Shown: positions 3,273 to 56,133 of the stretch, in pieces
How the letters are laid out: each line of letters begins with the position of its first letter
How positions within the stretch are numbered: position 1 is the first letter of the stretch
DNA from: Haloplanus natans DSM 17983
GTDB taxonomy: Archaea; Halobacteriota; Halobacteria; Halobacteriales; Haloferacaceae
DNA length: 64,000 bases
Assembly (NCBI RefSeq): GCF_000427685.1
Contig: NZ_KE386573.1
Location: 1,100,938 to 1,164,937 of the forward strand
Direction: 5' to 3'
The notes under the pieces: generated by a model
What the model was told of the DNA's origin: nothing
Seen by the model: the letters and a program-made list of their open reading frames with translations, nothing else
Databases searched by the model: none
Program-made: the position numbers and the translations under genes

Positions 3273-3310
3273 AGGATGATGTAGACAACGACACTCCATA
3301 CCTGTTTCCA

Positions 3311-3360
3311 TTACTTACGTGAGCAACCGATACACCTATATCGGATACCCACGTAGGTAA
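3311..3360. promoter_or_regulatory. 50-base interrupted dyad with central TATA-like box
   Basis: Nested inverted repeats share one centre (3335.5): TTACTTACGTG (3311-3321) pairs with CACGTAGGTAA (3350-3360), and CCGATA (3327-3332) pairs with TATCGG (3339-3344). Nineteen of 25 symmetric positions are complementary. The centre carries CTATATC (3336-3342). It lies between the divergent winged-helix gene (start 3272) and SWIM gene (start 3446) and fits an operator for a dimeric regulator. Confidence 0.65.
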
Positions 3361-3383
3361 CGGTGAGAAGAACGGTTCCCTCG

Positions 3384-3443
3384 GGACGTGAAAGCGTCCG
3401 GGTGCTGAGACACCCGGAGCCGGCTTCTCTGGTAGGAGAAAGC
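3384..3443 (+). ncRNA. three-hairpin structured leader of the SWIM gene
   Basis: Three hairpins follow one another: GGACG/CGTCC (3384-3388/3395-3399, loop TGAAAG), CCGGGTG/CACCCGG (3398-3404/3411-3417, loop CTGAGA), and GGCTT-CTC/GAG-AAGCC (3422-3443, loop TGGTAG). Each has a six-base loop. The first two share two bases, so they may be alternatives. GGAG just before ATG 3446 lies inside the third stem, which could mask a ribosome binding site. It may be a cis-acting leader or a separate small RNA. Confidence 0.5.
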
Positions 3444-3445
3444 CA

Positions 3446-3901: not shown

Positions 3902-3959
3902 ATAAGCAATAGATTAGAGATATAACATCATGTGTTTCAAAGAACCAACTGAAATAGTA

Positions 3960-4394
3960 ATGGCCTTCACAAACGGGTATATTCCGGTATTCGAGAATGA
4001 TGAGGGCGAGATCCTGTGGGCATATGACCCTGTTAGAGGAACGTACTGCGGTGAGTTCGATGACGGCTTGCATTCAACTCCCCAATCGGTGCTATGGCCG
4101 AGTGAATTTAGCAACAGGACGGGCTGGCTTGACGTGCGAGAGCCACCACATCTGATTTACGAACCAGAGGGTACGTATGATGATTTCATCTCCGGTACGG
4201 AAAGGGAGTATCGGACTCACTTCGTCCATGACGGGACGGTTCTTTGCAATCATCGGATGATCGTTCCGTCCCCCGAATCCGAGGAGTTGACTCCATTGTC
4301 TGAATTCTCGGAAGAGGAGCTTCTACGCCTATCCGGACAGATGTGTTCAAACTGTCCGGACATAGACCATATTCTCTCGGAGGAGAAAAAATAG
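3960..4394 (+). CDS. hypothetical protein of the accessory segment
   Basis: 144 residues from ATG 3960 (MAFTNGYIPV...). ATG 3930 would add ten residues and cannot be excluded; an AT-rich GATATAAC lies just before it. The protein is acidic and has a possible zinc pair near the end (MCSNCPD). A WAYDPVRG-like stretch and a C-terminal acidic helix are visible, but I recognise no family. It follows the SWIM gene in the same direction after about 60 bases and may be co-transcribed. Confidence 0.6.
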   Translation: MAFTNGYIPVFENDEGEILWAYDPVRGTYCGEFDDGLHSTPQSVLWPSEFSNRTGWLDVREPPHLIYEPEGTYDDFISGTEREYRTHFVHDGTVLCNHRMIVPSPESEELTPLSEFSEEELLRLSGQMCSNCPDIDHILSEEKK

Positions 4395-4554
4395 AGTCGG
4401 GCTAACGACGGTCGGCGGGCTGGTGGTGATGGAAGTGGCGGCGCGGGTTCTCTGAGAAATTCTTGACTCCTCAAACATCAGTGGGAGATATAGGACGTTC
4501 TGAGAGTCTGACGAGAAGTGCTACTGCACAAGTCGAATAAGCTCTAAGACGCGC

Positions 4555-7500: not shown

Positions 7501-8016
7501 TACTTCAAGCAGGGCAGGGCGAATATCCACATACTGAATCTCCGGGTATTCGGTGAAGTCCCCGCCAAGCTCAATCCGGAAAATGTACCATTCAATCCCG
7601 TCCGTCGCGATCCCGTACTCAGCTCCTATAGATTTCTTATCAAGATATTCTTTAACCTCAGGAATTGCCTCATCTACGTTGTTGAGTGGTTTGTCTTCCC
7701 CGATAGTGTGGGGCTCAAAGTTGGTGAGTTCAAAGTCGGGCCACACAGCCCGCTCACCGCTTTGTCCGAACGGTCGAGGCTCATAGTCCAATCCGGCGGC
7801 TTCCAAGAGAGGGTAGATGAGGTGATTTTCGGTAAAAGACTCCGGGCGAGTTCCAAGGTCGGCGCTTGTCAAATTATCTTCATCTCCGGTTAGAACTCGC
7901 TCTATGTCGTGGGTGTCTAATCGGTCGCCCAATTCGATAACGAATGTTTCCAAAACCTCGCGTACATCTTCTGTATCAAGTATAGAGTCCTCATCGGGCA
8001 GAGCGGGGTCGGGCAT
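4555..8016 (-). CDS. type IIG-like restriction-modification protein (PD-(D/E)xK nuclease + N6-adenine methyltransferase)
   Basis: 1153 residues. The N-terminus has a PD-(D/E)xK pattern: P93-D94 followed by E107-D-K109, within a region resembling the HsdR/N-terminal domain of type I and IIG enzymes. SAM-binding motif I is LDPACGSGHF near residue 497, and catalytic motif IV is NPPY near 808-812, which is typical of N6-adenine methylation (Eco57I-type). The remaining C-terminus should hold target recognition. A single chain that both cuts and methylates DNA fits type IIG. PglX of BREX systems has a similar methyltransferase core, but no other BREX gene is seen. Defence against foreign DNA is the likely role. 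Confidence 0.88.
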   Translation of the reverse strand: MPDPALPDEDSILDTEDVREVLETFVIELGDRLDTHDIERVLTGDEDNLTSADLGTRPESFTENHLIYPLLEAAGLDYEPRPFGQSGERAVWPDFELTNFEPHTIGEDKPLNNVDEAIPEVKEYLDKKSIGAEYGIATDGIEWYIFRIELGGDFTEYPEIQYVDIRPALLEVARDTGVVSSTSLTHVDVEEELDGFVSTFDRPKFQTLLSQTAPKTLRDERKRDVEAFYELYIELLFGESDEYDYETCLMDDIRSPSGATEKDERLFGITLMNRLLFIKFLESRDILYDGFLRDRVDHYERHENVLAGNLYETQIRPLFYKLLNTEVDDREPKYRRGWFDEVPYLNGGLFRENVPEESNYTVIDRILPTVISDLIEGSQLELNGGGFDPAILGSVFEKTINHIEQEREQKDTGAYYTPNDVTEIVSRNAIDPKIRDVLIETFVDIVSQDDDQATVIRGQLDEMELSEILEAVEEGRSWFATPEAIEEANDRLSQIKVLDPACGSGHFLTSAMDEVYRAQLSLQRGLSHGDTPDAETRFHLKRNLALSGIYGVDADRIATEIAKLRVWLKIVEDNSWTPEFGKLPNIDVNIIDGNSLIGLPIKGMTDVSLDFADVEEQMEEVLELRKQYKKEETEDRTEIEQLEEEIRPVLNKAYVDQLNYTVETKFEKAEEFRKFCDSIQEPQLHSKLVSIKVERVDEEELSDNDKDRLGDLGFEWQEWRDTNKSASLDVADRERELRDDDETDDPQETLVDELCELLSDGFVFSQVERRPIGDDLNDVLGTPFHWAAEFPEANSEDNGTLDVDFDIIVGNPPYGDLLSESEDALTATYRTAGEDIAALFVERQLQLLAEDGYFGNVTTLKLVYKRSMEEIQDYLRETLDRTDIACFAKRPSKVFEGAEVRIAIISGKKASSEGKGSIYTSDFIRFDNDKDRDTRFRNITYRNTDGYTLRNDGIDGDGKHVALAKVGLEHIENILQKLKEQPSLIKKREEDSETDHVIWRRRGMDYFTNPMLEKLYSGTDVKGIYFKSELEARSAFLAISSSVFYVYWCTYGDMFHLNLGEIRGFPLPEEDELESRRDEIIEISDRLWNTMEDGFNADVKNFDNYEMQKPIIEEADEVMGELYGLSEEQINFVQGYHSEYGRHGPEDSQLTDY

Positions 8017-8429
8017 TCTACATCTTGCCTCTCAAGCGCACCAATTAAAAGGTGCGTTGCCGGAGGGAGTCTACTCTCTAAGTGACGGTTCTCCCTGCTT
8101 CCTGACAAGCGCATTTAAAATAGGTGTGCTTCGTATGATACTCATCGGGAGACTGCGTCGACCCTCAACCGTTCGACGGTTCAAATGAAACGGTCAGCTT
8201 CTCACAAGGTCGCGCCCGGTTTTCTCCGGACAACATCAGGTGGGAAGCACTAACTCGCCTACTACGCCAGCGCGAAATTCTCACAACGAGCGGGACGACT
8301 TACTTCGGATCTCGACCGGGCGGGACTGATGAAGTCGCAACCGGAGGGGAGCAACTGTAGTTTGACCAAGTCATTGGGTGGCCCACGTTCCCTGTGGGAA
8401 TCACGTATCCTCAAGGTAGTATATGAATT
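8017..8429. other. intergenic region upstream of the nuclease-methyltransferase
   Basis: About 410 bases without a supportable gene. It should hold the promoter of the minus-strand methyltransferase gene; I see no convincing operator or repeat. Confidence 0.45.
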
Positions 8430-8711
8430 TTATTCTGAACTATCCGAAGTAACTTCCTCAAGCCTATTTTCAAGTGACTGTATTCGTCGACGGGCTTGTA
8501 TTAATTCTCTGCGGGTTTCGTCTCGTTGTTTTCTCAGTTCTTCATTCGATTCGTCGCTATTGATTTGCCTGTCGAACTTTTTCATCCCTGCTTCGGTCAT
8601 ATTTTTTATAAAGCCTGAAAGGGATACTCCCGCATCTTCCGCTCCCTGCTCCCATCTCTCTTTCTGCTCCTTCGTCACGTATACGAATATTTGCTGTGTC
8701 AATTTTGTCAT
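8430..8711 (-). CDS. ribbon-helix-helix-like protein with C-terminal coiled coil
   Basis: 93 residues from ATG 8711. The N-terminus (TQQIFVYVTKEQKERW) has the beta-strand plus helix look of a ribbon-helix-helix DNA-binding protein. It is followed by SLSGFIKNMTEAG and, from about residue 50 onward, a highly charged Arg/Glu-rich coiled coil. Such small proteins are typical of haloarchaeal plasmids and integrated elements, where they serve as copy-number, partition or antitoxin-like regulators. The exact role is unknown. Confidence 0.7.
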   Translation of the reverse strand: MTKLTQQIFVYVTKEQKERWEQGAEDAGVSLSGFIKNMTEAGMKKFDRQINSDESNEELRKQRDETRRELIQARRRIQSLENRLEEVTSDSSE

Positions 8712-9282
8712 TGTCTATGGTATTTATCAGGATCAGTCCTGTTCCTTTTCTCTTCATACGCTATAATAGATGATAGAGACGCGCAAATCGGAGGTATTTG
8801 ATACGTTACGAAGAGATATATTTTCATTAGTCAATTGGTGTTTTATAGACGTGACTACCTCCGTGACTGCCTTCGTATAACTCGTTATCTTTCTGCCTCT
8901 CCACCTCTGAACCCTTGTCGTAGTGCTTGTCCAACACTCATTCTCTATCTGGCCAAGTCCTCCGTCTCGCCGTCGTCATTACGGCAGTTCCGTATGTGAG
9001 AGCGCCGATTTTACGGGGTATAATAATGATTTGGGTGGCCAATATTTTTGTGCCACTCATCTCATTGGAATTAGTTGTGTGCTTGACCATGGGGAGAAGA
9101 GTCGCGTGTTCGCTCTTTTTGGATACGTTGAGTCTGTGTCAGAGCAATTATAATCGAAGTACGGCGAGTCGACGTTGCTCACGAAGCAAAAAAACAGGGC
9201 TTATAAGCAATCGGTACGTCCAATTGAGTGTGGAAGCCCCCAAGGGTGCTACACATATAAACTGAGGCGCGAGCCGAAGTTT
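8712..9282. other. intergenic region between accessory segment and tRNA-Glu
   Basis: About 570 AT-rich bases. A hydrophobic TTG-initiated frame at 8927-9265 has no family features and I do not call it. I see no integrase remnant. The tRNA promoter should be near its right end. Confidence 0.4.
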
Positions 9283-9357
9283 GCTCCGATAGTGTAGTCC
9301 GGCCAATCATATTGCCCTCTCACGGCAATGACCAGGGTTCGAATCCCTGTCGGAGCA
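9283..9357 (+). tRNA. tRNA-Glu (CTC)
   Basis: 75 bases with a full cloverleaf. The acceptor stem is GCTCCGA/TCGGAGC and the anticodon stem is TTGCC/GGCAA with loop CTCTCAC, giving anticodon CTC (9319-9321), which reads GAG. The T-arm is CAGGG-TTCGAAT-CCCTG. The terminal A of 9357 is templated; no CCA is encoded. No intron is seen. Confidence 0.95.
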
Positions 9358-9468
9358 TTGCAGCGAGCGTCACGCTGTGACGCGAGCGAAACGCACACGA
9401 AGGGGTTCGAACCACGCGAGACGAGCGTCAACGAGTCTCGCAATCGGGTTCGAATCCCTGTCGGAGCA
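9335..9468. repeat. duplicated tRNA-Glu 3' end (att-like direct repeat)
   Basis: The last 23 bases of the tRNA (9335-9357) recur exactly at 9446-9468. A partial copy, GGGGTTCGAA, lies at 9402-9411. Between the copies are two hairpins: GCGTCAC/GTGACGC (9367-9383) and GCGAGAC/GTCTCGC (about 9416-9441). Such duplications mark integrase-mediated insertion at a tRNA 3' end. Only about 110 bases remain, so this is a scar or a nested remnant. Confidence 0.75.
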
Positions 9469-9573
9469 GTTCTCGAACGTAGTGAGCGACTGCGACCGGA
9501 GATTCATTATCGTCGCCGCCGCGAGGTTCGGTATGGACGGACTCACCGACACCCGGCGACGGGGTACTCACTG

Positions 9574-10392
9574 ATGCGCTATCTCGCCCGCACCGCCGAC
9601 GGCCGCCCACTCGTCGGCGACGACGACGGAGTCGTTCCGCTCACGGCCCTCTATCCCGACGCATCGAGCGTCCACGACGCCCTGCCGCGGGCGACGACGG
9701 GCCTGCGGGACCCGGCGGACGCGACGGCTGACCGAGTTCCGCGCGACGGGGTCACCTTCGGCCCGCCGCTCGACGACCCCGGCAAACTGTTCGGCATCGG
9801 CCTCAACTACGCCGACCACGCTGCGGACCTCTCGGAGGAACCACCGGAAGAGCCGGCGAGTTTCTTCAAGCCGGCCACCGCGGCGACGGGACCGGGCGGC
9901 CCGATACGGCTGCCGCCCCGCGAACAGTCCGATTGCGTCACCGCGGAGGCAGAACTCGCCGTCGTGATCGGACGGACCTGTCGGAACGTCGCCGTCGACG
10001 ACGCCGAGTCGGTGATCGCGGGCTATACGCCGGTGATCGACGTGACCGCCGAGGACGTTCTCGCGCGCAACCCCCGCTTTCTCACGCGGGCAAAGAGCTA
10101 CGACACGTTTCTCGTTCTCGGACCGCATATCGCGGTGCCGAAAGCCGACGGAGCGCTCGACGATATCGAGGTGCGGACGGTCGTGAACGGCGAGGTGCGG
10201 GCGCGAAACACCCTGGCCAACATGCAGTTCTCGCCGCGGGAACTCGTCGCCTACCACTCCGGAGTGATGACACTGGAGCCGGGCGACGTGATCTCGACGG
10301 GGACGCCCGGCGCCCATCCGATCGAACCGGGAGACCTGGTACGGGCCGAGGTGGACCGGATCGGACCGGTCGGCGCGGACGTGGTACGGTAG
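9574..10392 (+). CDS. fumarylacetoacetate hydrolase (FAH) family protein
   Basis: 272 residues from ATG 9574. An N-terminal small domain is followed by the FAH fold: GIGLNYADHA, FFKP, AEAELAVVIG (metal-binding acidic residues), KSYDTFLVLGP and GDVISTGTPG. Family members hydrolyse, decarboxylate or isomerise acylpyruvates and related oxo-acids with a bound divalent metal. The exact substrate cannot be read from the sequence; catabolism of aromatic compounds or an oxaloacetate decarboxylase-like role are both possible. The start is chosen because upstream in-frame codons run through the duplicated tRNA region. Confidence 0.9.
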   Translation: MRYLARTADGRPLVGDDDGVVPLTALYPDASSVHDALPRATTGLRDPADATADRVPRDGVTFGPPLDDPGKLFGIGLNYADHAADLSEEPPEEPASFFKPATAATGPGGPIRLPPREQSDCVTAEAELAVVIGRTCRNVAVDDAESVIAGYTPVIDVTAEDVLARNPRFLTRAKSYDTFLVLGPHIAVPKADGALDDIEVRTVVNGEVRARNTLANMQFSPRELVAYHSGVMTLEPGDVISTGTPGAHPIEPGDLVRAEVDRIGPVGADVVR

Positions 10393-45158: not shown

Positions 45159-46424
45159 TTAGTCGTCGCGTGGAAGCAGTCGCGCGCCGACGAGGCCGAC
45201 GACCACCATCCCAGCGACGGCGCCGAGGATCGACAGCCCGGGGAACGAAGGGATGGCGGCGCTGGCGGACGGCGCCGTCTCCGCTGTGGCCCCGCGGTCC
45301 GTATCTCCCCCCGCGGCTGCGCCCGCCTCGTTCCCGCCGGACGCCACGCTCGCGCCCGTCGCGTTCTGCGTGCGCGCACCGTCGAGGTCGAACCGGATCG
45401 TCTCACCCGCGTCGATCGGCCCGTCGCTGGTGAGCAGCGGGATCGGCGCTTCGCCGACGCGGAGGTTCCGAGAGTGGTCGACCGTGTTCGGATCGTAGCC
45501 CTGGACGACGACGGTGAGCGACGCGGTGTCACGAAGCGGCGCCGTCTCGACCCGCGTCCCGTCGAGGTCGGCGGCGACCCCGACCCGCGCGGTGGCGTTC
45601 GCGGGGACGGAGACGTTGACCTGGACCCCGCCGTCGGTCCGCCGGTACTCTGCCTCCTGTCCCCCGGCCATCGCCGCGTACGGCGTGGCGTCCGCCGGGA
45701 CGGGGAGTTCGACCACCCCGACGAAGGGGCGGTCGGTCGGGTTCCGGAGGGTAATCGTCCCGATCACGCTCGGGACGCTCGTCCCGTTCGCCGGCGGCAC
45801 GACCTGCAACACGTACGGCGTCCGGCTGTCGTTGGCGATCCGGAGAACGGACGCGTCCGCGGTCGGCGGGCGCGCCACGAGGCTGACGGTCCCACTCTCG
45901 GACGCCTCGACGGTCGCCCGATAGCCGACGCCGTCGACGGTCGCCCGGACGCGGTAGGTCTCCGTCTCCTCGACCGGTCCGACCCTGAACCGGCCGTCGC
46001 CGTCGGTTTCGGTTTCCGTCACGACGAAGCCCTGGTCGTCGGTCACCCGAATGGGTACGCCGGAGAGGGGCGTCCCCGAGGCGTCCGCGACGCGCCCGCC
46101 GACCGATCCCGAGAGGCTGAGCGACGCGCTCGTGGTGTTGCGGAGCATTTCGTAGTGGGTCGTGCTCCCGTATGCGACCCGGACGGCGTACGCCGACGCT
46201 TCGGCGACGTCGACCGAGAACGACGACCCCTGCACCGTCGTCCGTGCGGGGGGGCCGGCGCGTTGCTGGGTCGCGGTGACGGGAACGACGGTCACCTGGG
46301 CGCCGTCGGCACTGCCGCCGTCGACGGTGACGGTGCCCGAAACGGACACCGTCGACTGCGCCGCGGCGGTCGGGGCGGCGGCGACACAGGCGAGGACGAC
46401 GACGAGTGCGAGGAGGCGCTTCAT
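45159..46424 (-). CDS. secreted or surface protein of the cytochrome c maturation operon
   Basis: 421 residues. Signal peptide of about 22 residues (MKRLLALVVVLACVAAAPTAAAQ). A carboxypeptidase-regulatory-like beta sandwich follows (about 100-165: GRVADASGTPLSGVPIRVTDD...DGDGRFRVG), then a second beta domain, a low-complexity linker and a C-terminal helix (LSILGAVAGMVVVGLVGARLL) that anchors it. Its start overlaps the CcmF stop by one base. It therefore belongs to the operon of thioredoxin and CcmF, and may help present the apocytochrome. No CcmH-like CxxC is present. Confidence 0.75.
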   Translation of the reverse strand: MKRLLALVVVLACVAAAPTAAAQSTVSVSGTVTVDGGSADGAQVTVVPVTATQQRAGPPARTTVQGSSFSVDVAEASAYAVRVAYGSTTHYEMLRNTTSASLSLSGSVGGRVADASGTPLSGVPIRVTDDQGFVVTETETDGDGRFRVGPVEETETYRVRATVDGVGYRATVEASESGTVSLVARPPTADASVLRIANDSRTPYVLQVVPPANGTSVPSVIGTITLRNPTDRPFVGVVELPVPADATPYAAMAGGQEAEYRRTDGGVQVNVSVPANATARVGVAADLDGTRVETAPLRDTASLTVVVQGYDPNTVDHSRNLRVGEAPIPLLTSDGPIDAGETIRFDLDGARTQNATGASVASGGNEAGAAAGGDTDRGATAETAPSASAAIPSFPGLSILGAVAGMVVVGLVGARLLPRDD

Positions 46425-48823
46425 CAGTCCGCCACCTCCGGGTTCGCGTCGCGGGCCGTCCCACGAACCGCCGTGTCGGTCACCGCGCCGTGGCGCGGGT
46501 CGAAGAGGGCAACGAGGCTCATCCCGAGGAGCAGCGAGACGATGGCGAGTCGCATGAGCGTGACGAAGGGAATCCGCTTGACAGTGATCGAGGCGGTGCC
46601 GTCGCTGACTCCGGCGATGACGTACGTATCGGCGAGGAGACCGCGGTCGATGACGACGTCCCTGATCTGCATACCGCCCTGTTCGGGATAGCGTCGCTGT
46701 CCGGCGATGCCGGAGGCGCGGAGCCGGTCACCCTCGTACACCGCGAGCGAGACGCCCTCCGCGACGACGCGGGTCGGGACGACGCTCTCGGGCGGGTCGG
46801 CCGTCGGCCCGACCGTCTTCGGCCCCGCGAGGACGACGGCGTCCGCGCTCGGCACGAAGTCCCACATCAGGCGCCCCCGAGCGACGATGCGTTCGCCGGT
46901 CGTCACCGGGACCGTCGTCCCGTTGCCGGCGAGGCCGATCCAGACGTTCGAGCCGTCGAGTTGGACGACCGTCGCCCGCGGCCCCTCGCGAACGTCGGTC
47001 ACTCGCCCGTGGACCGTCTGGACGGAGCCGTTCAACGAGGAGCCGCGCCGCACCACCTGCTCGGTCGAGAGCGCGTGCGTCCCGACCGCCGGGTCCTGCG
47101 GGAACTCGGTCCGGGAGTGACCGAGGACCCGGACCGAGTAGTCGGAACCGGGAACCGCCTGCCGGGACGTGTCCATCGATCCGTCCCCGACGCCGGTCGC
47201 CATCACGGACGCCTGCCCGGCGAAGACGTACATGAAGGGAAGGGAGAGGACGAGCAGCGCCGCACCGACGTGGATGAGGCTTATCCCCATCTGCTTCAGT
47301 CTCGCGTTGCGGGAGGCCGCCGTCCGGATTCGGCCGCCGGTCCGTTTCACGGTCCCGAGGATGGCGTAGGCGACGGGCGGCAGCACCGACGCAGCGCTCG
47401 CCGACCCGACGAGTCGGTAGACGACGGCGTCGTCCGGTCGGGTCGACGCCAGTTGCCACATCTCGGTGGGGGCGACGAACGCGCCGACGAGCGTGGCGAC
47501 GGTGAAGGCGCCGAGACCGGCGAGCGCTCGCGTACGTCCCGCGGCTTCGTAGTCCATGTAGAACCCGAGAAGCAGGAGGAGGCCGAGGACGAGCGGGTAG
47601 CTCCAGAGGTTGTAGTAGCGCGCTTCGACCGAGACTTCGAGCCCGGTGATCGCGTTCCGGAGCAGCGGGAAGGAAAGTCCCCAAAGCGAGACGAAGGTGA
47701 GGAGGCCGAAACCGAGGACGGCGAGGTGGACGAGGTTCGCACGGCGGAGCCACCGGCCGTCGGCCCCGTCGTCGGCTCCATCGTCCGGTTGGAGCAGCCA
47801 GTAGGTCACCGGGGCGAGGACGCCGAGCGCAGCGGTCAGCGCCATGAGGAGGAGGAAGGCGGCGCCGATACCGCCGTCGGCGAAGGAGTGGACGCTCCGG
47901 AAGACGCCGCTCCGGACGACCGACGTGGTGTACACCGCGAGCGCGAACACCGTCGCGGTCATCGCGGGCGCGAGGACGCGGTAGCGACCCGTCGGCTCGT
48001 AGGCGCTGACGGCATGGAGCGTCGCGGTCAGGAAGAGCCACGGGATCAGGATCGCCGTCTCGACGGGGTCCCACGCCCAGATGCCGCCCCACCCGAGGAC
48101 GGTGTAAGACCAGAGGCCACCGAGCGCGACCGCGGCGGTCAGAAACAGCCAGCTCAGGCGGAGCCAGCGCGTGACGCTCCCGTGCCACGTCGGGAAGACG
48201 CCGCCGTTCCCCCGGAACAGCGAGACGAAGTGAGCCGCCCCGATGGCGAACGGCATCGCCAGGAGGGCGTAGGCGGTAAACATCACGGGCGGGTGGATCG
48301 CCATGTACGGATCGACCAGCAGGGGGTTCAGTCCCTGGCCGGACGTGGGCACGAACCCCGGCGGGGCGCCGGGGAATGCCGTCCGAATCGACGCGAACGG
48401 GCTCTGGGCCAACAACATGCCGGTGAAGTACGCGACGAGGCCGAGCGTGAGGCCGTGAATCAGCTTGGCGTGTCGGTCGGGGATGCCGCGAACCGCGCCA
48501 GCGATCATCGCCACGACCGAGACGATGGCCGCCCACAGCAACACCGACCCCTCGTTGGCGGCGTAGACGCCGGTTACCCGGTAGAGCAACGGCAGGTACG
48601 AGGCGGTGTTCTCCCAGACGTAGGCGTTCGAGTAGTCGGTCGTCACGAACTGATACGTGAGGTGGAGCAACGCCGAGACGAGCAAGACGGCGGCCGCCGC
48701 GGTGAGTTTCGGGACGTGTGCGACGTACGCGTCGTCGTCGGCGACGTAGGCACGACCCAGGAGGCCGGCCGCCGAGAGCGACGCGCCGAAGGCGAGTCCG
48801 AGCAGGACCGTCCCGACGTTCAT
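46424..48823 (-). CDS. ccmF: cytochrome c heme lyase CcmF
   Basis: 799 residues with about 14-15 membrane segments. The heme-handling WWD domain is GWGGIWAWDPVE near residue 240, with histidines in VDPYMAIHPPVMF and NEGSVLLWAAIVS around it. A large non-membrane domain lies near 520-770. In System I, CcmF attaches heme to the CxxCH of apocytochromes. It overlaps the upstream thioredoxin stop by four bases and the downstream gene by one. Confidence 0.94.
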   Translation of the reverse strand: MNVGTVLLGLAFGASLSAAGLLGRAYVADDDAYVAHVPKLTAAAAVLLVSALLHLTYQFVTTDYSNAYVWENTASYLPLLYRVTGVYAANEGSVLLWAAIVSVVAMIAGAVRGIPDRHAKLIHGLTLGLVAYFTGMLLAQSPFASIRTAFPGAPPGFVPTSGQGLNPLLVDPYMAIHPPVMFTAYALLAMPFAIGAAHFVSLFRGNGGVFPTWHGSVTRWLRLSWLFLTAAVALGGLWSYTVLGWGGIWAWDPVETAILIPWLFLTATLHAVSAYEPTGRYRVLAPAMTATVFALAVYTTSVVRSGVFRSVHSFADGGIGAAFLLLMALTAALGVLAPVTYWLLQPDDGADDGADGRWLRRANLVHLAVLGFGLLTFVSLWGLSFPLLRNAITGLEVSVEARYYNLWSYPLVLGLLLLLGFYMDYEAAGRTRALAGLGAFTVATLVGAFVAPTEMWQLASTRPDDAVVYRLVGSASAASVLPPVAYAILGTVKRTGGRIRTAASRNARLKQMGISLIHVGAALLVLSLPFMYVFAGQASVMATGVGDGSMDTSRQAVPGSDYSVRVLGHSRTEFPQDPAVGTHALSTEQVVRRGSSLNGSVQTVHGRVTDVREGPRATVVQLDGSNVWIGLAGNGTTVPVTTGERIVARGRLMWDFVPSADAVVLAGPKTVGPTADPPESVVPTRVVAEGVSLAVYEGDRLRASGIAGQRRYPEQGGMQIRDVVIDRGLLADTYVIAGVSDGTASITVKRIPFVTLMRLAIVSLLLGMSLVALFDPRHGAVTDTAVRGTARDANPEVAD

Positions 48824-49299
48824 GACGACCCACCCGAGTAGCGTTGCTCGGCCGTGTCGAGATAGGAGAGGAAATCCTCGGTCCCGGCGTAGCCGTTGAT
48901 CCGGACCAGCACCTCACCGTCGGGCGTGATGACGACGTGCTGGGGCGGGTAGTTGACGTTGTACTCCCGTTGCATCCGGGACGCGGCTCCGCCGTCGTCG
49001 TCCAGGTTCACCGCCACCTTCACGAAGTCGTCGAGCGCCGACTGCACCGCCGGATCGGCGTACACCTCCCGGTTGTAGTCCTCACAGTAGGTACACCACG
49101 TCGTCCAGAAGTAGACGACGATCGGTTTCCCCTCGGCCGCCGCAGTCTCCTCGGCGGCCGTCACGTCCGTCTGCCAGCGCGTGTCCCCGTGATACGAGTA
49201 GTTCTCGTCGCTCAGCGTGGGCGCTGCATGCATCGAAAAATACCCAATACTAAGCAAGACCACGAAGAAGGCGAGCGTCATCGCCTTTCGAGGCTTCAT
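48820..49299 (-). CDS. membrane-anchored thioredoxin-like protein (CcmG-like)
   Basis: 159 residues from ATG 49299. The N-terminal anchor helix is about 8-27. The thioredoxin fold carries WCTYC (about residues 72-76) and a PPQHVVI cis-Pro loop. It faces outward and likely reduces the disulfide of apocytochrome CxxCH with electrons from CcdA. It is the first gene of the three-gene minus-strand operon ending in the surface protein. Confidence 0.87.
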   Translation of the reverse strand: MKPRKAMTLAFFVVLLSIGYFSMHAAPTLSDENYSYHGDTRWQTDVTAAEETAAAEGKPIVVYFWTTWCTYCEDYNREVYADPAVQSALDDFVKVAVNLDDDGGAASRMQREYNVNYPPQHVVITPDGEVLVRINGYAGTEDFLSYLDTAEQRYSGGSS

Positions 49300-49612
49300 T
49301 GGTGACCGCCAGTAACGGCTTCCCCTAGTAAAACCTACTGTCTCTTCGCTCGCACTGAAAAATCAAGACGGCTACGAGAGCCGATTAGAGGTCCGATGAA
49401 CGCTAAATTCGGCGTCGACAAGTCGTCGGCAGCGAACGAACGAATCGGCCGCGTTTTTCGGAGTGAGAAAATCCGCAAAGGATACTTGTAGGGTCGAATC
49501 TCGGCGAGAAAAACGGAGGAAGGTTTATATTGGATGTGTAGATATAGCGAATTACTACGCGCGAGCGGACCACAACTATGACAGGTACATTCGAACGATC
49601 GGTGACACACGC
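49300..49612. other. divergent promoter region of the cytochrome locus
   Basis: About 310 bases between the CcmG-like gene (minus) and the cytochrome gene (plus). AT-rich for this genome. A TATA-like TTTATAT lies at 49524-49530. I see no clear operator. Confidence 0.5.
49524..49530 (+). promoter_or_regulatory. TATA-like box of cytochrome c operon
   Basis: TTTATAT in an AT-rich stretch about 85 bases before ATG 49613; it implies a leader of about 60 bases if used. Confidence 0.4.
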
Positions 49613-51031
49613 ATGAGTCAGGGCGACTCGACGCTCCTGCTCAAACCCGCGCTCCTTCTCGTCGGGACGGTTGCCGCTGCGGTCGTCCTGGTGTTCGCCC
49701 TCAACGGCGTCCTCGCGTACCTCGGTGTCGGTGCGGTCGGCCCCGGGGCACCGGCGACCCAGGCCGGCGGCCCGACGACGCCGGGAGCGAGCAACGCCAG
49801 CGGCGGCGGTGCCGGTGGTAGCGGCGCCGCCGGTGGCGTTCGAGCACTTCCGGCGACGTTCAGCGGGCAGAAGTGGTACAGTGAGGACCTGCGCGATCAG
49901 GAGTTCAAATACAAGGACCCGAACGCGGGCGCGGAAATCGAGTTCCAGCCCAAGAAGATGAACAACTCGACGTTGCCCGACAACGAGAAACGGGCCGAAC
50001 TCATCCGTGAGGGGCGGAGCCTGTTCGCCAACACCTCGGAGGAGATGCCCGAACACGTCGGCAACGATCTGTCGTGTGCGAACTGCCACGGCGGCGGTGA
50101 CCTGCCGACGACGACCGGCATGGTCGGCCAGGACATCGACATGATCCCGCTGGTCGGCACCGCCGCGGGCTACCCCGAGTGGACGGGCCGCACCGAGCGT
50201 ATGCGCGATATGCGCCAGCGTATCATGGGTTGTTTCCTCCGGAGCATGAACGCCCCCGGCTCGGCCGAGGGCGTCCCGGCCTACGACAGCCGCGAGATTC
50301 AGGCGATGGAGTCGTACATGGTCTGGCTGAACAAGGGGACTCCGAGCAGTCGCGTCCCCTACTGGCGCCACCTGGAGAAACCGGAAGGTGACGAGAAGGT
50401 GCCGGTGCCCGAGGTCAACCCCGTCCGCGGGGCCGAACTCTACCTCGAGAACTGCGCGTCCTGTCACGGCGCGGACGGACAGGGTATCGAGGGGCAGTAC
50501 CCGCCGCTGTGGGGCGAGGGCTCGTTCAACGACGGCGCCGGTATGGGGCGGATGTACACCTCGGCCGCGTTCATCCGCGAAGCCATGCCTTACGGCGCGG
50601 GTCACACGTTCTCGAACTGGGAGGACGTCCAGGACGTCGCCGGATTCATGAACGCTCACAAGCGACCGCACCTGCCGCGCCAGCCCAAAGACTGGGCCGT
50701 GTCGGGTGCCCCCGACGAGGGCATCTACTACAAGCGCGTCCAGCAGCGACACGGCTACGACATGAATCCGATGACGAAGAAGCTGATGCTGGCGGGCATC
50801 CCCATCGACGACTCGAAGCTCACCGCGGAGATGATCCCGGAGGATACGAGTCGGTACGACCAGCCGCTCCGTAACGGGTCGGTCGACGGCTCGTGGCAGA
50901 CCACCTGGATCCGGACGTACGAGACAGTCGGAAACGAAACGTCGACGAACGCGACGGCTTCGAACCAGTCGGCCGTCGCGACATCGGGTGCGGTCTCGTC
51001 GGCGATAGAGGGGTCGCACGCGGCCAGCTGA
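49613..51031 (+). CDS. membrane-anchored diheme cytochrome c, TsdA-like
   Basis: 472 residues from ATG 49613. An anchor helix (about 9-33) and a Gly/Ala/Thr linker precede two heme domains, with CANCH at 155-159 and CASCH at 281-285. Cys207, within RIMGCFLRSMN, lies 48 residues after the first heme histidine. In thiosulfate dehydrogenase TsdA a Cys about 40-50 residues beyond the first CxxCH is the axial ligand of the active-site heme. Oxidation of thiosulfate to tetrathionate is therefore the best guess; a general diheme electron carrier is the alternative. It heads the plus-strand ccdA-ccmC-ccmD operon. Confidence 0.85.
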   Translation: MSQGDSTLLLKPALLLVGTVAAAVVLVFALNGVLAYLGVGAVGPGAPATQAGGPTTPGASNASGGGAGGSGAAGGVRALPATFSGQKWYSEDLRDQEFKYKDPNAGAEIEFQPKKMNNSTLPDNEKRAELIREGRSLFANTSEEMPEHVGNDLSCANCHGGGDLPTTTGMVGQDIDMIPLVGTAAGYPEWTGRTERMRDMRQRIMGCFLRSMNAPGSAEGVPAYDSREIQAMESYMVWLNKGTPSSRVPYWRHLEKPEGDEKVPVPEVNPVRGAELYLENCASCHGADGQGIEGQYPPLWGEGSFNDGAGMGRMYTSAAFIREAMPYGAGHTFSNWEDVQDVAGFMNAHKRPHLPRQPKDWAVSGAPDEGIYYKRVQQRHGYDMNPMTKKLMLAGIPIDDSKLTAEMIPEDTSRYDQPLRNGSVDGSWQTTWIRTYETVGNETSTNATASNQSAVATSGAVSSAIEGSHAAS

Positions 51032-51055
51032 CACACCGCACTGGACTACGGACCG

Positions 51056-51736
51056 ATGCTCGAAACACCCTCCACGCTTGCGGTCTTTTTCGCCGGCGTC
51101 CTGACGATACTGACACCGTGTTGTCTGCCGATGATCCCCGTCCTCGTCGTCGGCGCGAACGGACACCGATTCCGGCCGGTCCTCATCGTCACGGGGAGCA
51201 CGCTGACGTTTACCGCCCTCGGCGTGGTGACTGGCTCCCTCGGGTCGGTAACGCCCGAGACGATCCGCGCTCCCTTCGCCGTCCTCATGCTCGCGTTCGG
51301 CGTCGTGCTCGCGGACGACGACGTGAACGCGGCGTACAGCCGGTACGCCTCCCGGCTCGCCGGGCGGGCGACGGCCCTGACCGGGCGAGTCGACGAGGAC
51401 CGCCACCCGCTCGCGAACGCCTTCGTGGTCGGCCTGTTGCTCGGCGTCATCTGGCTACCCTGTGTCGGCCCCGTCCTCGGGGGCGTCCTCGCGTACGTCG
51501 GATCGACCGAGGGCGTCGTCGGCGGCGCCGGCCTCCTCTTTACTTACGGCGTCGGGTTCTCGCTGCCGCTGCTCGGCGTGGCCTACGCCGGGCGGGCGGG
51601 CGGGCGCCGACTCCTCGACTGGCGGCCCGGGGCTGGCTTTCGAACCGCCACCGGGTACGCGTTCGTCCTGCTCGGACTGGCCGTGCTCTTCGATATCGAC
51701 AAACTCGCGCTCGCGTCGCTGACTGACACGCTCTAA
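51056..51736 (+). CDS. ccdA: CcdA-type thiol-disulfide transporter
   Basis: 226 residues with six hydrophobic segments. The two redox cysteines sit in TILTPCCLPMIPVL (near residue 22) and VIWLPCVGPVLGG (near 139), the CcdA/DsbD hallmark. It passes electrons from cytosolic thioredoxin across the membrane to the CcmG-like protein. It starts 24 bases after the cytochrome gene and lies five bases before ccmC. Confidence 0.92.
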   Translation: MLETPSTLAVFFAGVLTILTPCCLPMIPVLVVGANGHRFRPVLIVTGSTLTFTALGVVTGSLGSVTPETIRAPFAVLMLAFGVVLADDDVNAAYSRYASRLAGRATALTGRVDEDRHPLANAFVVGLLLGVIWLPCVGPVLGGVLAYVGSTEGVVGGAGLLFTYGVGFSLPLLGVAYAGRAGGRRLLDWRPGAGFRTATGYAFVLLGLAVLFDIDKLALASLTDTL

Positions 51737-51741
51737 CAGCC

Positions 51742-52509
51742 ATGACTACTGACCAACGAAACGAACGGAATCGATCGCGGTCGAATCGCTTCAGCGCCGC
51801 GCGGATCGTCGGCCGAATCACCGGGCTCCTCCACCGCGTCACCCGGAGCCGGGCCGTGAAGTGGGGGGCGCTCCTGTTCGGGACGCTCTCGTTCGTCCTG
51901 GTGTTCGGCCACGCGTCGAAGACGATGTACGGCATCGAACACGGCGGCAACCTGCTCGCTTACTGGCATATCGCCCTCGCGTGGGTGGCCTCGGCGGCGC
52001 TCGGCACGACGTTCCTCGGGAGCGTGCTCTTCCTCCGATACCGGGGGCGCTTCTGGAGCCGCCTCGCCCACAGCGCCGGGGAACTCGGCTTCCTCTTCGC
52101 GACGCTGACGCTCCTGCTGGGAAGTGCGTGGGGGAAGGTCATCTGGAACTCGTGGTGGGAGTGGACGGACGTTCGCCTCGTCACCTTCCTGATCGTGTGG
52201 TTCATCTACGCTGGCTATCTCGTGGTGTCGTCGGCGACGGACCCGAACACGGGCGACCGCTACACCGCGGTGTACGGCGTCGTCGGCTTCGTCACGGTTC
52301 CCATCTCCTATGCCTCGACGCGGCTGTGGACGCCCACGTTCCACGAGACGACCATCGGGAACCCGGAGGTCAGCGCGAACATCGGCCCGACGACGCTGCT
52401 CGTAACCGTCGTCGCGGCGACTCTCCTGTACGTCTACCTCCTCGGCGTTCGGATTCGGGTGCACGAAGTCGAAGACCGTCTCCGCGGACTCACCGGTGGG
52501 AGGAGGTGA
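51742..52509 (+). CDS. ccmC: heme exporter component CcmC
   Basis: 255 residues with six membrane segments after a basic N-terminus of about 40 residues. The WWD motif is WGKVIWNSWWEWTDVRL (about 130-146), with flanking histidines such as H71 and H76-like positions in GIEHGGNLLAYWH. CcmC hands heme to CcmE. The operon order ccdA-ccmC-ccmD supports the call. Confidence 0.92.
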   Translation: MTTDQRNERNRSRSNRFSAARIVGRITGLLHRVTRSRAVKWGALLFGTLSFVLVFGHASKTMYGIEHGGNLLAYWHIALAWVASAALGTTFLGSVLFLRYRGRFWSRLAHSAGELGFLFATLTLLLGSAWGKVIWNSWWEWTDVRLVTFLIVWFIYAGYLVVSSATDPNTGDRYTAVYGVVGFVTVPISYASTRLWTPTFHETTIGNPEVSANIGPTTLLVTVVAATLLYVYLLGVRIRVHEVEDRLRGLTGGRR

Positions 52510-52513
52510 TCGT

Positions 52514-52630
52514 ATGGAACCACTCCTCCTGTTCGGTTACACGGCGCTTTTCCTCGCGCTGTTCGGGTACGCGGCGTACCTCCAGCGCAAGCTGGGCCGC
52601 GTCGAGCGACGGCTGAACGACCTCCGGTAG
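52514..52630 (+). CDS. ccmD: CcmD-like small membrane protein
   Basis: 38 residues from ATG 52514, four bases after the ccmC stop. One hydrophobic helix (LLLFGYTALFLALFGYAAY) and a basic tail (QRKLGRVERRLNDLR) match CcmD, which stabilises the CcmABC complex. The location right after ccmC makes the call likely. Confidence 0.82.
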   Translation: MEPLLLFGYTALFLALFGYAAYLQRKLGRVERRLNDLR

Positions 52631-52634
52631 GCCG

Positions 52635-53309
52635 CTACTCCTCGACAACGAAATCGAACGTGGCGACGCCCGCGAGCAACAGGACCGCGGTGTAGACGAC
52701 GAGCAGGCGGAGCCACGACCCGGTCGGGGCGTCCGTCGTGAGCGCCGCCGTCAGTTCGACGCCCGCGAGCAACACGGGGACGACGAGCGGAACGAGCAAC
52801 AGCGGCAAGGCGAGTTCGTCGAGGCCGGCACGGAAGGTGAGCGTCGCGACGACGACGCCGACGGCGGCGAATCCGACCGCCGCGACGGCGAGGACGCCGA
52901 GCAGCGCGAGCGCCGTCCGGGGCGTCGGCGCGTAGCCGAGCAGGACCGCCGTCGCCCCGAGGGTCAACACGTTCACCGCGAAGACGAACAGCGACGTACT
53001 CGTCACCTTCCCCAGGTAGATGGCGGAGCGATCGACCGGCGCGAGTAGGATGCCGTCGAGTGCGGCGTCGTCGTCCTCGACGGTGGCCGTCTTCGTCACA
53101 CCGAGTGTCCCCCCGAAGACGAACGCGATCCAGAGGGCGCCCCGACCGAGCACCGCTGGGTTCCGAAACGTCTTGACGAAGCTGAACGCGAATGCGAGGA
53201 CGATCAGCAGGGCGAACATCGCCATCGTCGTCGTGACGCGTCGAGAGCGGCTCTCGATCCGGAGGTCCTTCCGGACGATTCGGGAGACCGTGCCGAGAAA
53301 CGACCTCAC
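52635..53309 (-). CDS. ccmB: heme exporter permease CcmB
   Basis: 224 residues with six hydrophobic segments. The start, VSRIVRKDLRIESRSR, and LDGILLAPVDRSAIYLGK are typical of CcmB. It forms the ABC complex with CcmA and CcmC that drives release of holo-CcmE. Its start overlaps the ccmA stop by four bases; it is convergent with ccmD. Confidence 0.93.
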   Translation of the reverse strand: MRSFLGTVSRIVRKDLRIESRSRRVTTTMAMFALLIVLAFAFSFVKTFRNPAVLGRGALWIAFVFGGTLGVTKTATVEDDDAALDGILLAPVDRSAIYLGKVTSTSLFVFAVNVLTLGATAVLLGYAPTPRTALALLGVLAVAAVGFAAVGVVVATLTFRAGLDELALPLLLVPLVVPVLLAGVELTAALTTDAPTGSWLRLLVVYTAVLLLAGVATFDFVVEE

Positions 53310-54070
53310 GGATCGTCGCCTCCCTTCGATCCGTCGTCGACGCCGATGGTCCGGCGATACGTCGCTTCGAACGCCGCCGCCGACGTTTCGTCGAGGTCGA
53401 CGTCCGCCCGTAGCCGGCCGCGGTCGACGACGAGCGCCCGATCACATCGACCGACCCCCCGGTCGAGGTCGTGGGTCGTCAGGAGGACGGTCCGGTCGTC
53501 GAACCCGTCCAGAATCGTCGCGAGGTCGGCCACGGATCGCTGGTCGAGGCCGGCGTACGGTTCGTCGAGCAAGAGTACGTCTGGACGGTGGAGAAGCGCC
53601 CGGGCCAGCGACAGCCGTTTGCGGAGGCCGTGTGAGAACGCGCCGGGGTACTGACTCGCCCGTCCGCTCAGGTTCACGGCGTCGAGCACCGCCTCACAAC
53701 GCGCTGCGGGGTCGGCGACCCCGTGGAGGTCGGCGTGAAACCGGAGGTTCTCTCGCGCGCTGAGGTCGTCGTACAGCATCGACTCGTGGGTCACGACCCC
53801 GACCGTCCGGTGGACGGCGTGGTCGCCGGGTACGAGTTCCGCGCCGCCGAGACTGATGGTCCCGCTGGTGGGCCGGGCGAGCCCCGCGAGCATACGCAAC
53901 AGGGTCGACTTGCCCGCCCCGTTCGGGCCGAACAGGCCGACCGTCTCGCCCGACGCGACGGCGAAGCTGACGCCGTCGACGGCGGTCACCCGACCGTACA
54001 CCTTCCTCACGTCGTCGGTCCGCACCGCCGACGGCGTCGTCGCGGGCGCCGGTCGGGCGTCGGTGGTCAT
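53306..54070 (-). CDS. ccmA: ABC ATPase CcmA
   Basis: 254 residues from ATG 54070. Walker A GPNGAGKST (48-56), signature FSHGLRKRLSLA, Walker B DVLLLDEP and H-loop TTHD are present. The signature departs from LSGGQ, as in other CcmA and ABC-2 type ATPases. The ATG overlaps the ccmE stop, so ccmE-ccmA-ccmB form one operon. Confidence 0.93.
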   Translation of the reverse strand: MTTDARPAPATTPSAVRTDDVRKVYGRVTAVDGVSFAVASGETVGLFGPNGAGKSTLLRMLAGLARPTSGTISLGGAELVPGDHAVHRTVGVVTHESMLYDDLSARENLRFHADLHGVADPAARCEAVLDAVNLSGRASQYPGAFSHGLRKRLSLARALLHRPDVLLLDEPYAGLDQRSVADLATILDGFDDRTVLLTTHDLDRGVGRCDRALVVDRGRLRADVDLDETSAAAFEATYRRTIGVDDGSKGGDDP

Positions 54071-54441
54071 CGAGTGTCGTCCGGCCGCTCGGAGCCCTCG
54101 TGGGCACGGACCGAGAGCTGTTTGGCGACGAGCCTGTCGCCCTCGACTCGCCCTTTCGCAACGACGACCCGACCCTCGCCCATCGTGTCCGGAAGCGTTC
54201 CCTCGTAGACGACCGTCGTCGAGTGGTTGCCGTCGGTCACCTCGAACGTCGCCGTCCCGCCTTCCGTCTCGAGGTTCTTCACCGACCCTTCGAGGTTCAC
54301 CCACTCGCCCCCGTACTCGTCCTCGGAGAGTTGTGTCGGACTCACGAACGCGGCGGAGGCGTTCATGCTCGTCGCGCCCAGCACACCCAGGAGCGCGAGG
54401 ATTGCCACCGTCGTGACGAGAAGTTTGTTCTTCCGTCGCAC
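54067..54441 (-). CDS. ccmE: heme chaperone CcmE
   Basis: 124 residues. Anchor helix (about 8-25), then a small OB-fold barrel (WVNLEGSVKNLETEGGTATFEVTD, VVVAKGRVEGDRLVAKQL). In bacteria, heme binds the His of a HxxxY motif just after the barrel; some archaeal forms use CxxxY. Here the only candidate is H114 in RAHEGSE, and the Tyr is absent. The position in the operon and the fold make CcmE very likely; the altered heme site is notable. Confidence 0.85.
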   Translation of the reverse strand: MRRKNKLLVTTVAILALLGVLGATSMNASAAFVSPTQLSEDEYGGEWVNLEGSVKNLETEGGTATFEVTDGNHSTTVVYEGTLPDTMGEGRVVVAKGRVEGDRLVAKQLSVRAHEGSERPDDTR

Positions 54442-54582: not shown

Positions 54583-56133
54583 ATGACAACTTTCCGCGTG
54601 CTCGGAACGTTGAGCATGGTGTTACTGCTCGCCATCGCGGGTGTGGCGCCCGCCGTCGCGACGACCGACACCGGGGACGCATGGACCGGCGTCGCGCCCA
54701 CGCATTCGGGTGGGGAGACCGGGACGCCGGGCGAGGAGGTGGTTCTCCACCAGCGCGGCATCGTCTCACGCAACTCCGAGCCCGGAAGCGTGACGCTCAC
54801 GTTCGCGTACGACATCCCGTCGTCGATCACGGGCCTCCGGGTCTCCGTGCCCGTCGTCGGCCTCGACGGTATCTCCGTCGCCGGGATGGAAGGGTTCGAA
54901 CGGACCGACCGCGGCTACTTCCTCTGGGACGGCGAGACGGCGCACCCGACGGTTTCGGTACGGATGGCGGTGACCGACTCGCTCGCCGAGGGCGTCCGGG
55001 GCATCGAGCGCGAGGACTGGGCGCTCGTCTCCGAGCCACAGACCCGAATCCAGGTGCGGACCGACGCGCGCCCCCGTCAGCGCACCTCCTTTACCGTCGC
55101 CGACGGCGAGGAGGGGTACGCCCGGAGTCACCTGGCCTACCTCGGCCCGCACGAACGCCGGAACGTCACGCTCGGCGGCGAGCGGACGACGTTCGTCCTC
55201 GGCGCCGAGAACGCCGATCCGACGCGTGCGATCGAGTTCCTCCGCACCGCGAACGGGCGCTTCGACTTCGGCGTCCGGCGCGACTCGATGACGGTGTTCG
55301 TCGTCCCCCTCGGCGGGCTGGAAGAGGGGCCGGTGCAGGCGGCCACCGTCGACACCGCGTTCTGGGTTGGATCGACGGGGCTCCGACTCGAATCGACCGG
55401 CTCCGTCTTCGCCCACGAGTACGTCCACACCCGGTTGGGAACGGTCGGCCGCGAGGACGCGGCGTGGCTGACCGAAGCGAGCGCCGAGTACTACGGCCGC
55501 CTGTTCGCGTTCAACGCCGGCGTCGGCACCTACGACTCGTTCCTCGAGGGACTGCGGGCGACCCAGTACGCCCCCGACCGCCGCGCGGCGGTGCTCACCG
55601 ATTCGGAGACGTGGCAGGGAACGCAGGCCCACTACGACAAGGGCGCACACGTCCTCGCGGCGCTGGACGCGGAGATTCGCCGCCGCACCGACGGTGACCA
55701 CACCCTCAGTGACGTGTTCACGGGGCGGTCGGAGCCGTTCGGCGACTACGAGGCCTTCCGGTCGGCGGTGGTCGAGGTGACCGGCGACGAGGCCATCGGG
55801 ACGTGGCTGGACCGCTACGCCACCACCGACGACCTGCCGCCGCTCCCCGAGCATCCGCGGAACTACGTGGCCGCCCCGTCGCTCGATCCGGACGGCGACG
55901 GCATGCCGAGCGGCGCCGAACTCGACGCCGGCCGGCACCCGTTCGTCGAGGGACCGGCGACCGAGCAGTTGGCCGACCGGACGACGGCGACGGCGACGCC
56001 CTCGGCCACGGCGACGGGCGACGGGACGACGCCGGCACCGAGCGGCACGGAGGACCGGGCGCCGGGCTTCGGCGTCGTCGCGGCGCTCGCGGCGCTCGCC
56101 GTACTCGCGACGGATGTCGGACGACGACAGTAA
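54583..56133 (+). CDS. secreted gluzincin metallopeptidase (M1/M61-like), PGF-CTERM-like anchor
   Basis: 516 residues from ATG 54583 (ATG 54574 possible). Signal peptide about 1-25. Zinc motif HEYVH (278-282) with WLTEASAEYYG (295-304), where E298 is the third ligand as in M61 peptidases. The N-terminal half (about 45-230) is beta-rich. The C-terminus is a Thr/Ala-rich linker, then PGFGVVAALAALAVLA and basic residues, resembling PGF-CTERM sorting. It is divergent from the ccmE operon; any link to cytochrome maturation is unknown. Confidence 0.85.
   Translation: MTTFRVLGTLSMVLLLAIAGVAPAVATTDTGDAWTGVAPTHSGGETGTPGEEVVLHQRGIVSRNSEPGSVTLTFAYDIPSSITGLRVSVPVVGLDGISVAGMEGFERTDRGYFLWDGETAHPTVSVRMAVTDSLAEGVRGIEREDWALVSEPQTRIQVRTDARPRQRTSFTVADGEEGYARSHLAYLGPHERRNVTLGGERTTFVLGAENADPTRAIEFLRTANGRFDFGVRRDSMTVFVVPLGGLEEGPVQAATVDTAFWVGSTGLRLESTGSVFAHEYVHTRLGTVGREDAAWLTEASAEYYGRLFAFNAGVGTYDSFLEGLRATQYAPDRRAAVLTDSETWQGTQAHYDKGAHVLAALDAEIRRRTDGDHTLSDVFTGRSEPFGDYEAFRSAVVEVTGDEAIGTWLDRYATTDDLPPLPEHPRNYVAAPSLDPDGDGMPSGAELDAGRHPFVEGPATEQLADRTTATATPSATATGDGTTPAPSGTEDRAPGFGVVAALAALAVLATDVGRRQ

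Follow-up and report, generated by a model that had tools for sequence, protein, structure and literature searches.

A haloarchaeal System I cytochrome c maturation locus in Haloplanus natans with a TsdA-type diheme cytochrome as its probable dedicated client

We analysed a stretch of 64,000 nucleotides from Haloplanus natans DSM 17983 (C7:1100938-1164937, hereafter the window; genome of 3.80 Mb, 99.8% complete, in 8 contigs), in which ten genes arranged in three operons between positions 45159 and 54441 form a System I cytochrome c maturation (Ccm) locus. This locus very probably represents a haloarchaeal variant of System I devoted to a single client, a membrane-anchored diheme thiosulfate dehydrogenase of the TsdA type. 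The features that can be read directly from the sequences are the gene content, the TsdA active-site residues, the lack of a recognisable CcmH, a changed motif in CcmE, a CcmD-like gene, the co-occurrence of CcmE with particular clients across Halobacteria and the clades formed according to client. The presence together of the genes for CcmA, CcmB, CcmC, CcmE and CcmF places the locus in System I.

The cytochrome of the locus is encoded on the plus strand (49613..51031; 472 aa) and carries the heme motifs CANCH and CASCH. It matched Allochromatium vinosum TsdA (4v2k) with an E value of 3e-39 over both heme domains. The heme ligands and thiosulfate-contact residues of the A. vinosum enzyme have been named (PMC4423706), and their counterparts in the window protein are H159 (His80), C207 (Cys123), R193 (Arg109), R203 (Arg119) and S211 (Ser127), with chain numbering +27, together with M325 (Met236, same offset, taken from the 4v2k alignment). 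All six residues were invariant in an alignment of 12 haloarchaeal sequences. The features of the TsdA family, that is, two CxxCH motifs, a Cys heme ligand, the active-site Arg/Arg/Ser and the Met on heme 2, are all present, and on the strength of the 4v2k match and the conserved ligand and contact residues we file the protein under TsdA, as a probable thiosulfate dehydrogenase, which would work in the direction of thiosulfate oxidation. With its A. vinosum relative it has these residues and the two-domain heme architecture in common, and it differs in having a membrane anchor, a long C-terminal extension, an archaeal host and an Ala beside the Met where the 4v2k chain has Lys. A contig scan with CcmF as query gave 20 loci, 17 of them haloarchaeal (the named haloarchaeal loci). 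One of these, L014, is carried by Natronorubrum thiooxidans HArc-T, which is reportedly the isolate of Sorokin 2005. The title listed for that work in the references of PMC8530250 is "Oxidation of thiosulfate to tetrathionate by an haloarchaeon".

Across the genome, 121 DNA sites able to encode CxxCH were found (66 forward, 55 reverse), of which 30 were in loci, 86 in 76 further stretches and 5 inside the window. They gave 108 distinct frames that read through the motif with no stop, and the 70 frames of at least 60 aa were all read around the motif by eye. No exported c-type cytochrome other than the tsdA frame was recognisable among these 70 frames of the whole genome, as judged by eye and without a family scan. 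The remaining frames corresponded to zinc ribbons, HNH-type, alcohol-dehydrogenase-like and radical-SAM-like motifs, thioredoxin-like proteins and, in many cases, antisense or out-of-frame translations, and the few with a hydrophobic stretch (L103, L110, L129, L155, L170) were not cytochrome-like by eye. In addition, PF00034 at E values up to 10 matched only the tsdA gene in the whole genome, twice. No CcmH passed the PF03918 cut-off anywhere in this genome, whose best match (E 0.56) is interrupted by an internal stop, or in any other of the 40 haloarchaeal genomes with CcmE; in three of the 40, fragments at E 0.006-0.009 were found inside long frames. Given the lack of CcmH and the single recognisable c-type cytochrome, the machinery would serve one substrate. 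The original prediction had spoken of a dedicated assembly line for one cytochrome, and this proposal withstood both genome-wide searches, for CcmH and for other plausible CxxCH cytochromes, as well as the comparison of genomes given below. One recognisable c-type cytochrome beside a complete maturation set makes a clean system, in which deletion of the machinery should cost one enzyme only.

In a sample of 391 Halobacteria genomes, CcmE was found in 40, TsdA in 26 and a MauG-type protein over the cut-off in 14, a fifteenth match lying under it. All 26 TsdA genomes and all 14 MauG genomes fall within the 40 with CcmE, and 39 of these 40 encode at least one of TsdA and a MauG-type diheme protein; one genome (G037) has both and another, with a divergent CcmE (G346), has neither. 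The co-occurrence of client and CcmE gave a Fisher p of 5e-53, a statistic that ignores shared ancestry. These data indicate that haloarchaeal System I comes in two main types, which serve TsdA and MauG, respectively. The same distribution bears on the idea that the machinery has further clients, namely c-type cytochromes of unusual heme motif that have escaped detection, a suspicion raised for the haloarchaeal bc complex. Heme-stained proteins without genes have been reported as the "haloarchaea paradox", with a non-standard heme linkage suggested (PMC4429474), but the small haloarchaeal candidates of that very paper come from species without Ccm genes, and the restriction of CcmE to so few genomes, nearly all of them with TsdA or MauG, makes such additional clients highly improbable. 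Haloferax volcanii is listed in that paper as one of the species without CCM. As separate observations, the Ccm locus of G346 (L226, G346:C1:2688700-2708600) is divergent, with a CcmE end VKSHE, long CcmF and thioredoxin (Trx) branches and no TsdA or MauG over the cut-off, and contig G319:C2 holds a complete TsdA-Ccm locus twice, in nearly identical copies separated by about 167 kb (L236, L237).

A feature that sets the locus apart is its CcmE (54067..54441, minus strand; 124 aa, no Cys; PF03100 50.7 bits, cut-off 24.6). The OB domain of this protein ends in LSVRAHEG where HxxxY or CxxxY would be expected, a difference that the original prediction did not remark on. The HMMER alignment set Ala113 against E. 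coli H130 and His114 against the next residue, so that the canonical His at position 130 is replaced by Ala and no Tyr follows at +4; the Cys of CxxxY, which takes the place of His130 in the archaeal System I*, is also missing from haloarchaeal CcmE. SVRAH with neither the motif Cys nor the Tyr at +4 was found in the window and in the 17 named haloarchaeal loci, and it was invariant in 16 aligned haloarchaeal rows, the two deltaproteobacterial rows of that alignment having CPSKY. In the class-wide sample the His was kept in all 42 CcmE copies of the 40 genomes (38 VRAH, 3 IRAH, 1 VKSH), none of which had CxxxY or HxxxY; only one copy contained a Cys anywhere, at residue 13, and 11 had HxxxH through a second His. 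The control, composed of the 30 best-scoring copies and 20 picked across families from 155 non-haloarchaeal genomes with a match, showed CxxxY in 50 of 50 copies from elsewhere in the phylum. The PF03100 match ended at profile positions 92 to 95 in haloarchaeal proteins versus 95 to 99 in the others, among the rows shown, in line with loss of the motif. A further CcmE form in halobacteria may already have been mentioned by Allen et al. in 2006, and we claim no priority on the motif.

The Cys form has been given as the archaeal CcmE ("universally", "all", "Archaea are known to"; PMC9084895, PMC3601427, PMC4600277), with "almost all" in a figure legend of PMC9084895. The statement that archaeal CcmE carries CxxxY fails for the surveyed haloarchaea, in which His114 and its equivalents may be the residue of heme attachment. 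A C120H CcmE was undetectable in Methanosarcina acetivorans (PMC9084895). Alternatively, the locus could be an ordinary archaeal System I in which the differences in CcmE and CcmD have no mechanistic meaning and heme is bound to CcmE non-covalently or on another residue. Family membership of CcmE is retained, and the CxxxY CcmE of D. vulgaris has been reported to bind ferric heme non-covalently (PMC3884852); on the other hand, the invariance of SVRAH and the retention of the RAH/KSH His in every copy do not look like drift, and the Cys and Tyr of the archaeal-type protein have both been lost. We regard this explanation as unlikely, though by no means far-fetched. The field has yet to explain why one CcmE functions with His and another with Cys, and a natural archaeal His form makes this question testable.

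The minus-strand operon trx-ccmF-CpdR (49299 to 45159) contains the putative synthase module. Its first gene (48820..49299), overlapping ccmF by 4 nt, encodes a membrane-anchored thioredoxin with a WCTYC motif (Thioredoxin_2 51.8 bits, Thioredoxin_7 47.2 bits). This protein had been called CcmG-like; it is better described as DsbD-gamma-like, with only 27.1 bits against the DsbE/CcmG model TIGR00385 (cut-off 123.15), and it may work as a reductase in the CcmG position. CcmF (46424..48823, minus strand; 799 aa) matched PF01578 (Cytochrom_C_asm) with 87.7 bits (cut-off 29.9), CcmF_C with 30.1 bits and, as a profile, CcmF 6zmq with an E value of 2.5e-54; the nearest named sequences, from Halobellus (Haloferacaceae), were 72 to 73% identical. 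It carries the WWD motif and four His positions, WGGIWAWDPVE and His 270, 312 and 518 being invariant in the haloarchaeal CcmFs compared. The exception at the fourth position, His177, is the Halococcus morrhuae CcmF (L006:8644-11034), which has Pro there (MAIPPPVMF), through either a sequencing error or a real change.

Furthermore, CcmF contains an OB-fold insertion at about residues 598-676. The insertion site spans 74 to 83 residues in 31 of 31 haloarchaeal CcmFs versus 30 and 31 residues in two bacterial ones. In the AlphaFold2 (AF2) model the insertion was predicted at good confidence, within a model that was poor overall (mean pLDDT, the per-residue confidence score, 54.5; transmembrane part mostly <50). 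Residues 577-676 resembled OB domains (VIA Z 9.4 to 10.7), among them CcmE 1sr3 (Z 9.5, root-mean-square deviation 4.2, 94 residues aligned), which tied with the OB folds of tRNA synthetases and RPA. An origin of the insertion from CcmE was considered and set aside, as hhalign comparisons with haloarchaeal CcmE gave only 16% and 26% probability, and no common origin is claimed.

The thioredoxin gene adjoins ccmF in the 17 named loci of the TsdA type, in L226 and in six of the seven MauG-type loci fetched, the seventh (L227) having neither trx nor ccmF inside the fetched stretch. Phylogenetic trees separated the TsdA and MauG types with support of 100/100 for CcmF (24 TsdA rows, 6 MauG rows), 100/99 for Trx, 95/91 for CcmC and 97/92 for CcmE. 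In G037, the genome with both clients, one CcmE and one CcmD were found, both in the MauG locus (L228), together with two Trx-CcmF modules, one in that locus and one beside TsdA (L229), each grouping with its own client type. The module on the TsdA side comes with CpdR and CcdA, and none of CcmA, B, C, D and E turned up in the 20 kb fetched around it. The CcmF module appears to be client-specific.

The third gene of the operon (45159..46424, minus strand), for which we coined the label CpdR, encodes a protein of 421 aa with a signal peptide and a C-terminal transmembrane helix (Pfam CarboxypepD_reg, 37.2 bits). As a Ccm gene it was rejected, and its product is a conserved exported beta-sandwich protein. 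In the AF2 model (mean pLDDT 82.4) the protein folds into several beta sandwiches and has a helix at its C terminus; residues 105-187 are similar to carboxypeptidase-regulatory domains and to CnaB domains (Z up to 13.6), and residues 190-350 to the N-domains of M1 peptidases and to domains of oligosaccharyltransferases (Z about 10 to 11), although a shared fold would give no function for the protein. A CpdR profile matched in 26 of the 60 genomes tested; these are the 26 with TsdA, and the two that have a second TsdA (G319, G325) have a second CpdR as well. The profile matched in none of the other 34, composed of 14 genomes with CcmE and without TsdA (13 with MauG only, one with neither client) and 20 without CcmE. 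A role as a generic Ccm gene was discarded on its absence from those 14 genomes, and a role as a substitute for CcmH in thiol chemistry because none of the 17 named copies has a Cys outside residues 12-14 (window copy read by eye).

CpdR could act as a chaperone of apo-TsdA or as a partner once the enzyme is mature, and we lean slightly to the partner. The chance is about even that it works with mature TsdA in a structural role or in electron transfer, for instance by tethering it to the membrane or S-layer, and not in maturation, and that it only shares a transcript with ccmF. CpdR follows TsdA and not the Ccm genes, its folds resemble the beta sandwiches of pilin/S-layer proteins and M1-peptidase N-domains, and its cysteines are confined to the signal peptide region. 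In G021 it stands directly divergent, head to head, with tsdA (L235, G021:C105:1-10000), with no trx or ccmF between the two or within the 10 kb fetched; the Ccm genes of this genome are spread over several small contigs, CcmE and the CcmD-like gene being on contigs other than L235. Against the partner role, CpdR lies downstream of ccmF on the same strand in all 17 named loci and goes with the TsdA-side module in G037. A more elaborate proposal combines a third CcmE chemistry (His one residue past the bacterial site, with no Cys or Tyr) with a client-dedicated Trx-CcmF(OB)-CpdR synthase, in which CpdR would be a TsdA-specific apocytochrome chaperone replacing CcmH/CcmI, and CcmABCDE heme delivery could be shared between two synthases per cell. 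We consider it rather improbable, in part because CpdR of G021 adjoins tsdA and not ccmF.

Directly after ccmC, an open reading frame (52514..52630, plus strand; 38 aa) encodes a CcmD-like protein. Frames of 38 to 39 aa whose products have a single hydrophobic segment and end in a basic tail were found at this place in the window and in 16 of 16 named loci with a complete ccmC, as expected for CcmD, a small protein with a single transmembrane segment encoded next to CcmC. A profile built on them matched in all 40 haloarchaeal genomes with CcmE (E 9.1e-8 or better, the weakest being the G346 copy, which has one in-frame TAG) and in one of 20 relatives without CcmE, which were the first listed and not a random sample (E 0.0095 over 19 positions only). 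A comparison of the protein with PDB chains gave six weak matches, no CcmD chain among them. The link to bacterial CcmD is suggested by place, size and topology, the sequence homology being weak. It has been stated that ccmD is uniformly absent in archaeal genomes (PMC9084895), which fails for the surveyed haloarchaea. A figure legend of PMC12077264 (2025) includes Halobacteria in a CcmC/CcmD alignment, so that haloarchaeal ccmD is implicitly in print already; apart from this legend, a literature search on CcmD in haloarchaea gave nothing relevant.

From these features we infer the following mechanism for a System I devoted to TsdA. CcmABCD would pass heme to CcmE outside the membrane, and CcmE would hold it by His114, which lies a single residue beyond the classical position, and not via HxxxY or CxxxY. 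Electrons from CcdA would reach the anchored thioredoxin, which would reduce the two CxxCH motifs of apo-TsdA, and the Trx-CcmF unit would attach both hemes without CcmH. CpdR would assist TsdA, either in its assembly or later, as a partner protein of the finished enzyme, and mature TsdA would couple thiosulfate/tetrathionate to the respiratory chain.

Several points weigh against this reading. The single-client result covers frames of at least 60 aa with CxxCH spacing, 70 of the 108 found, and the last step of the scan was by eye. Since all four trees split by client, the split alone does not show dedication, and that of CcmF may reflect merely two inherited locus types, as CcmC and CcmE separate in the same way. 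G037 shows dedication better than the trees, and it is the sole genome that separates the modules. The layout of G021 fits a TsdA partner better than a part of the synthase. Finally, PF04995 matched five of the 17 CcmD-like proteins, and weakly (E 0.0046 at best, amid other transmembrane families); the window copy is not among the five.

The other genes complete the locus. In the plus-strand operon tsdA-ccdA-ccmC-ccmD (49613 to 52630), CcdA (51056..51736) matched DsbD_TM with 73.6 bits (cut-off 27.1), and CcmC (51742..52509), with a WWD motif read by eye, matched Cytochrom_C_asm with 75.6 bits (cut-off 29.9) and TIGR01191 with E 2.8e-23, under the curated cut-off. In the minus-strand operon ccmE-ccmA-ccmB (54441 to 52635), with 4-nt overlaps at both junctions, the CcmA ATPase (53306..54070) matched TIGR01189 with 138.3 bits (cut-off 131.6) and CcmB (52635..53309) PF03379 with 71.4 bits (cut-off 24.9). 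The NCBIfam models for CcmE, CcmB, CcmC and CcmF/NrfE matched the window proteins under their cut-offs, in line with divergent family members. The family matches over curated cut-offs bear out the position, coordinates, three-operon layout and gene calls first proposed; the list of CcmA, B, C, E, F, CcdA, thioredoxin and diheme cytochrome stands, and to it is added the CcmD-like frame, which had not been named separately. CcmA, CcmB, CcmE, CcmF, thioredoxin, CcdA, the diheme cytochrome and CpdR are kept in all 17 named haloarchaeal loci, and the locus is thus more than a chance grouping; in L012 the contig end cuts off ccmC and part of ccdA. The ccmEAB genes are on the opposite side of ccmF in L005, L007 and others and the order in L017 is different again, so that content is conserved more than order. 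Divergent from ccmE, window positions 54583-56130 encode an exported protein in which a HEYVHTR motif like that of metalloproteases was noted by eye; it has a hydrophobic helix at the C terminus, and no Pfam family was found for it at E 0.01. At the other end, window positions 1-10000 have a G+C content of ~50% versus 63 to 72% across the remaining window, which suggests an integrated element.

Compared with known systems, the compact set without CcmH, which the original prediction had presented as rare, is not new, since lack of CcmH is the archaeal norm (PMC3601427, PMC9084895, PMC4600277) and TDH-ccm clusters have been reported (PMC4429474). The description as a minimal System I is not entirely apt, as a CcmD-like gene is kept, a TsdA-linked gene is added and CcmF has an extra OB-fold domain. 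With the archaeal System I* of M. acetivorans (CcmABCEF, PMC9084895) the window locus shares CcmA, B, C, E and F, the lack of CcmH/CcmI and an archaeal host, and it differs in the RAH in place of CxxxY in CcmE, the CcmD-like gene, a single-chain CcmF with an OB-fold insertion and the presence of CcdA and thioredoxin in the cluster. Kletzin et al. 2015 (PMC4429474) described the same kind of locus, with TDH homologs (cluster 28) operon-like with CCM genes in five haloarchaea, and named both the TDH and MauG clients; in the parts of that paper available to us, no mention of the CcmE motif, CcmD, CpdR or client-specific CcmF modules was found. The NrfEFG dedicated heme lyase of E. coli (PMC3601427) offers a functional comparison only, in the idea of a second CcmF-type synthase module for one cytochrome; unlike the Nrf system, the window client has no CxxCK and no NrfF- or NrfG-like gene was recognised in the locus. 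Altogether, the comparison indicates that the type of locus is already known and that, as a System I, it is a distinct variant, with a CcmE motif outside published generalisations, a CcmD-like gene and an apparently client-specific CcmF module.

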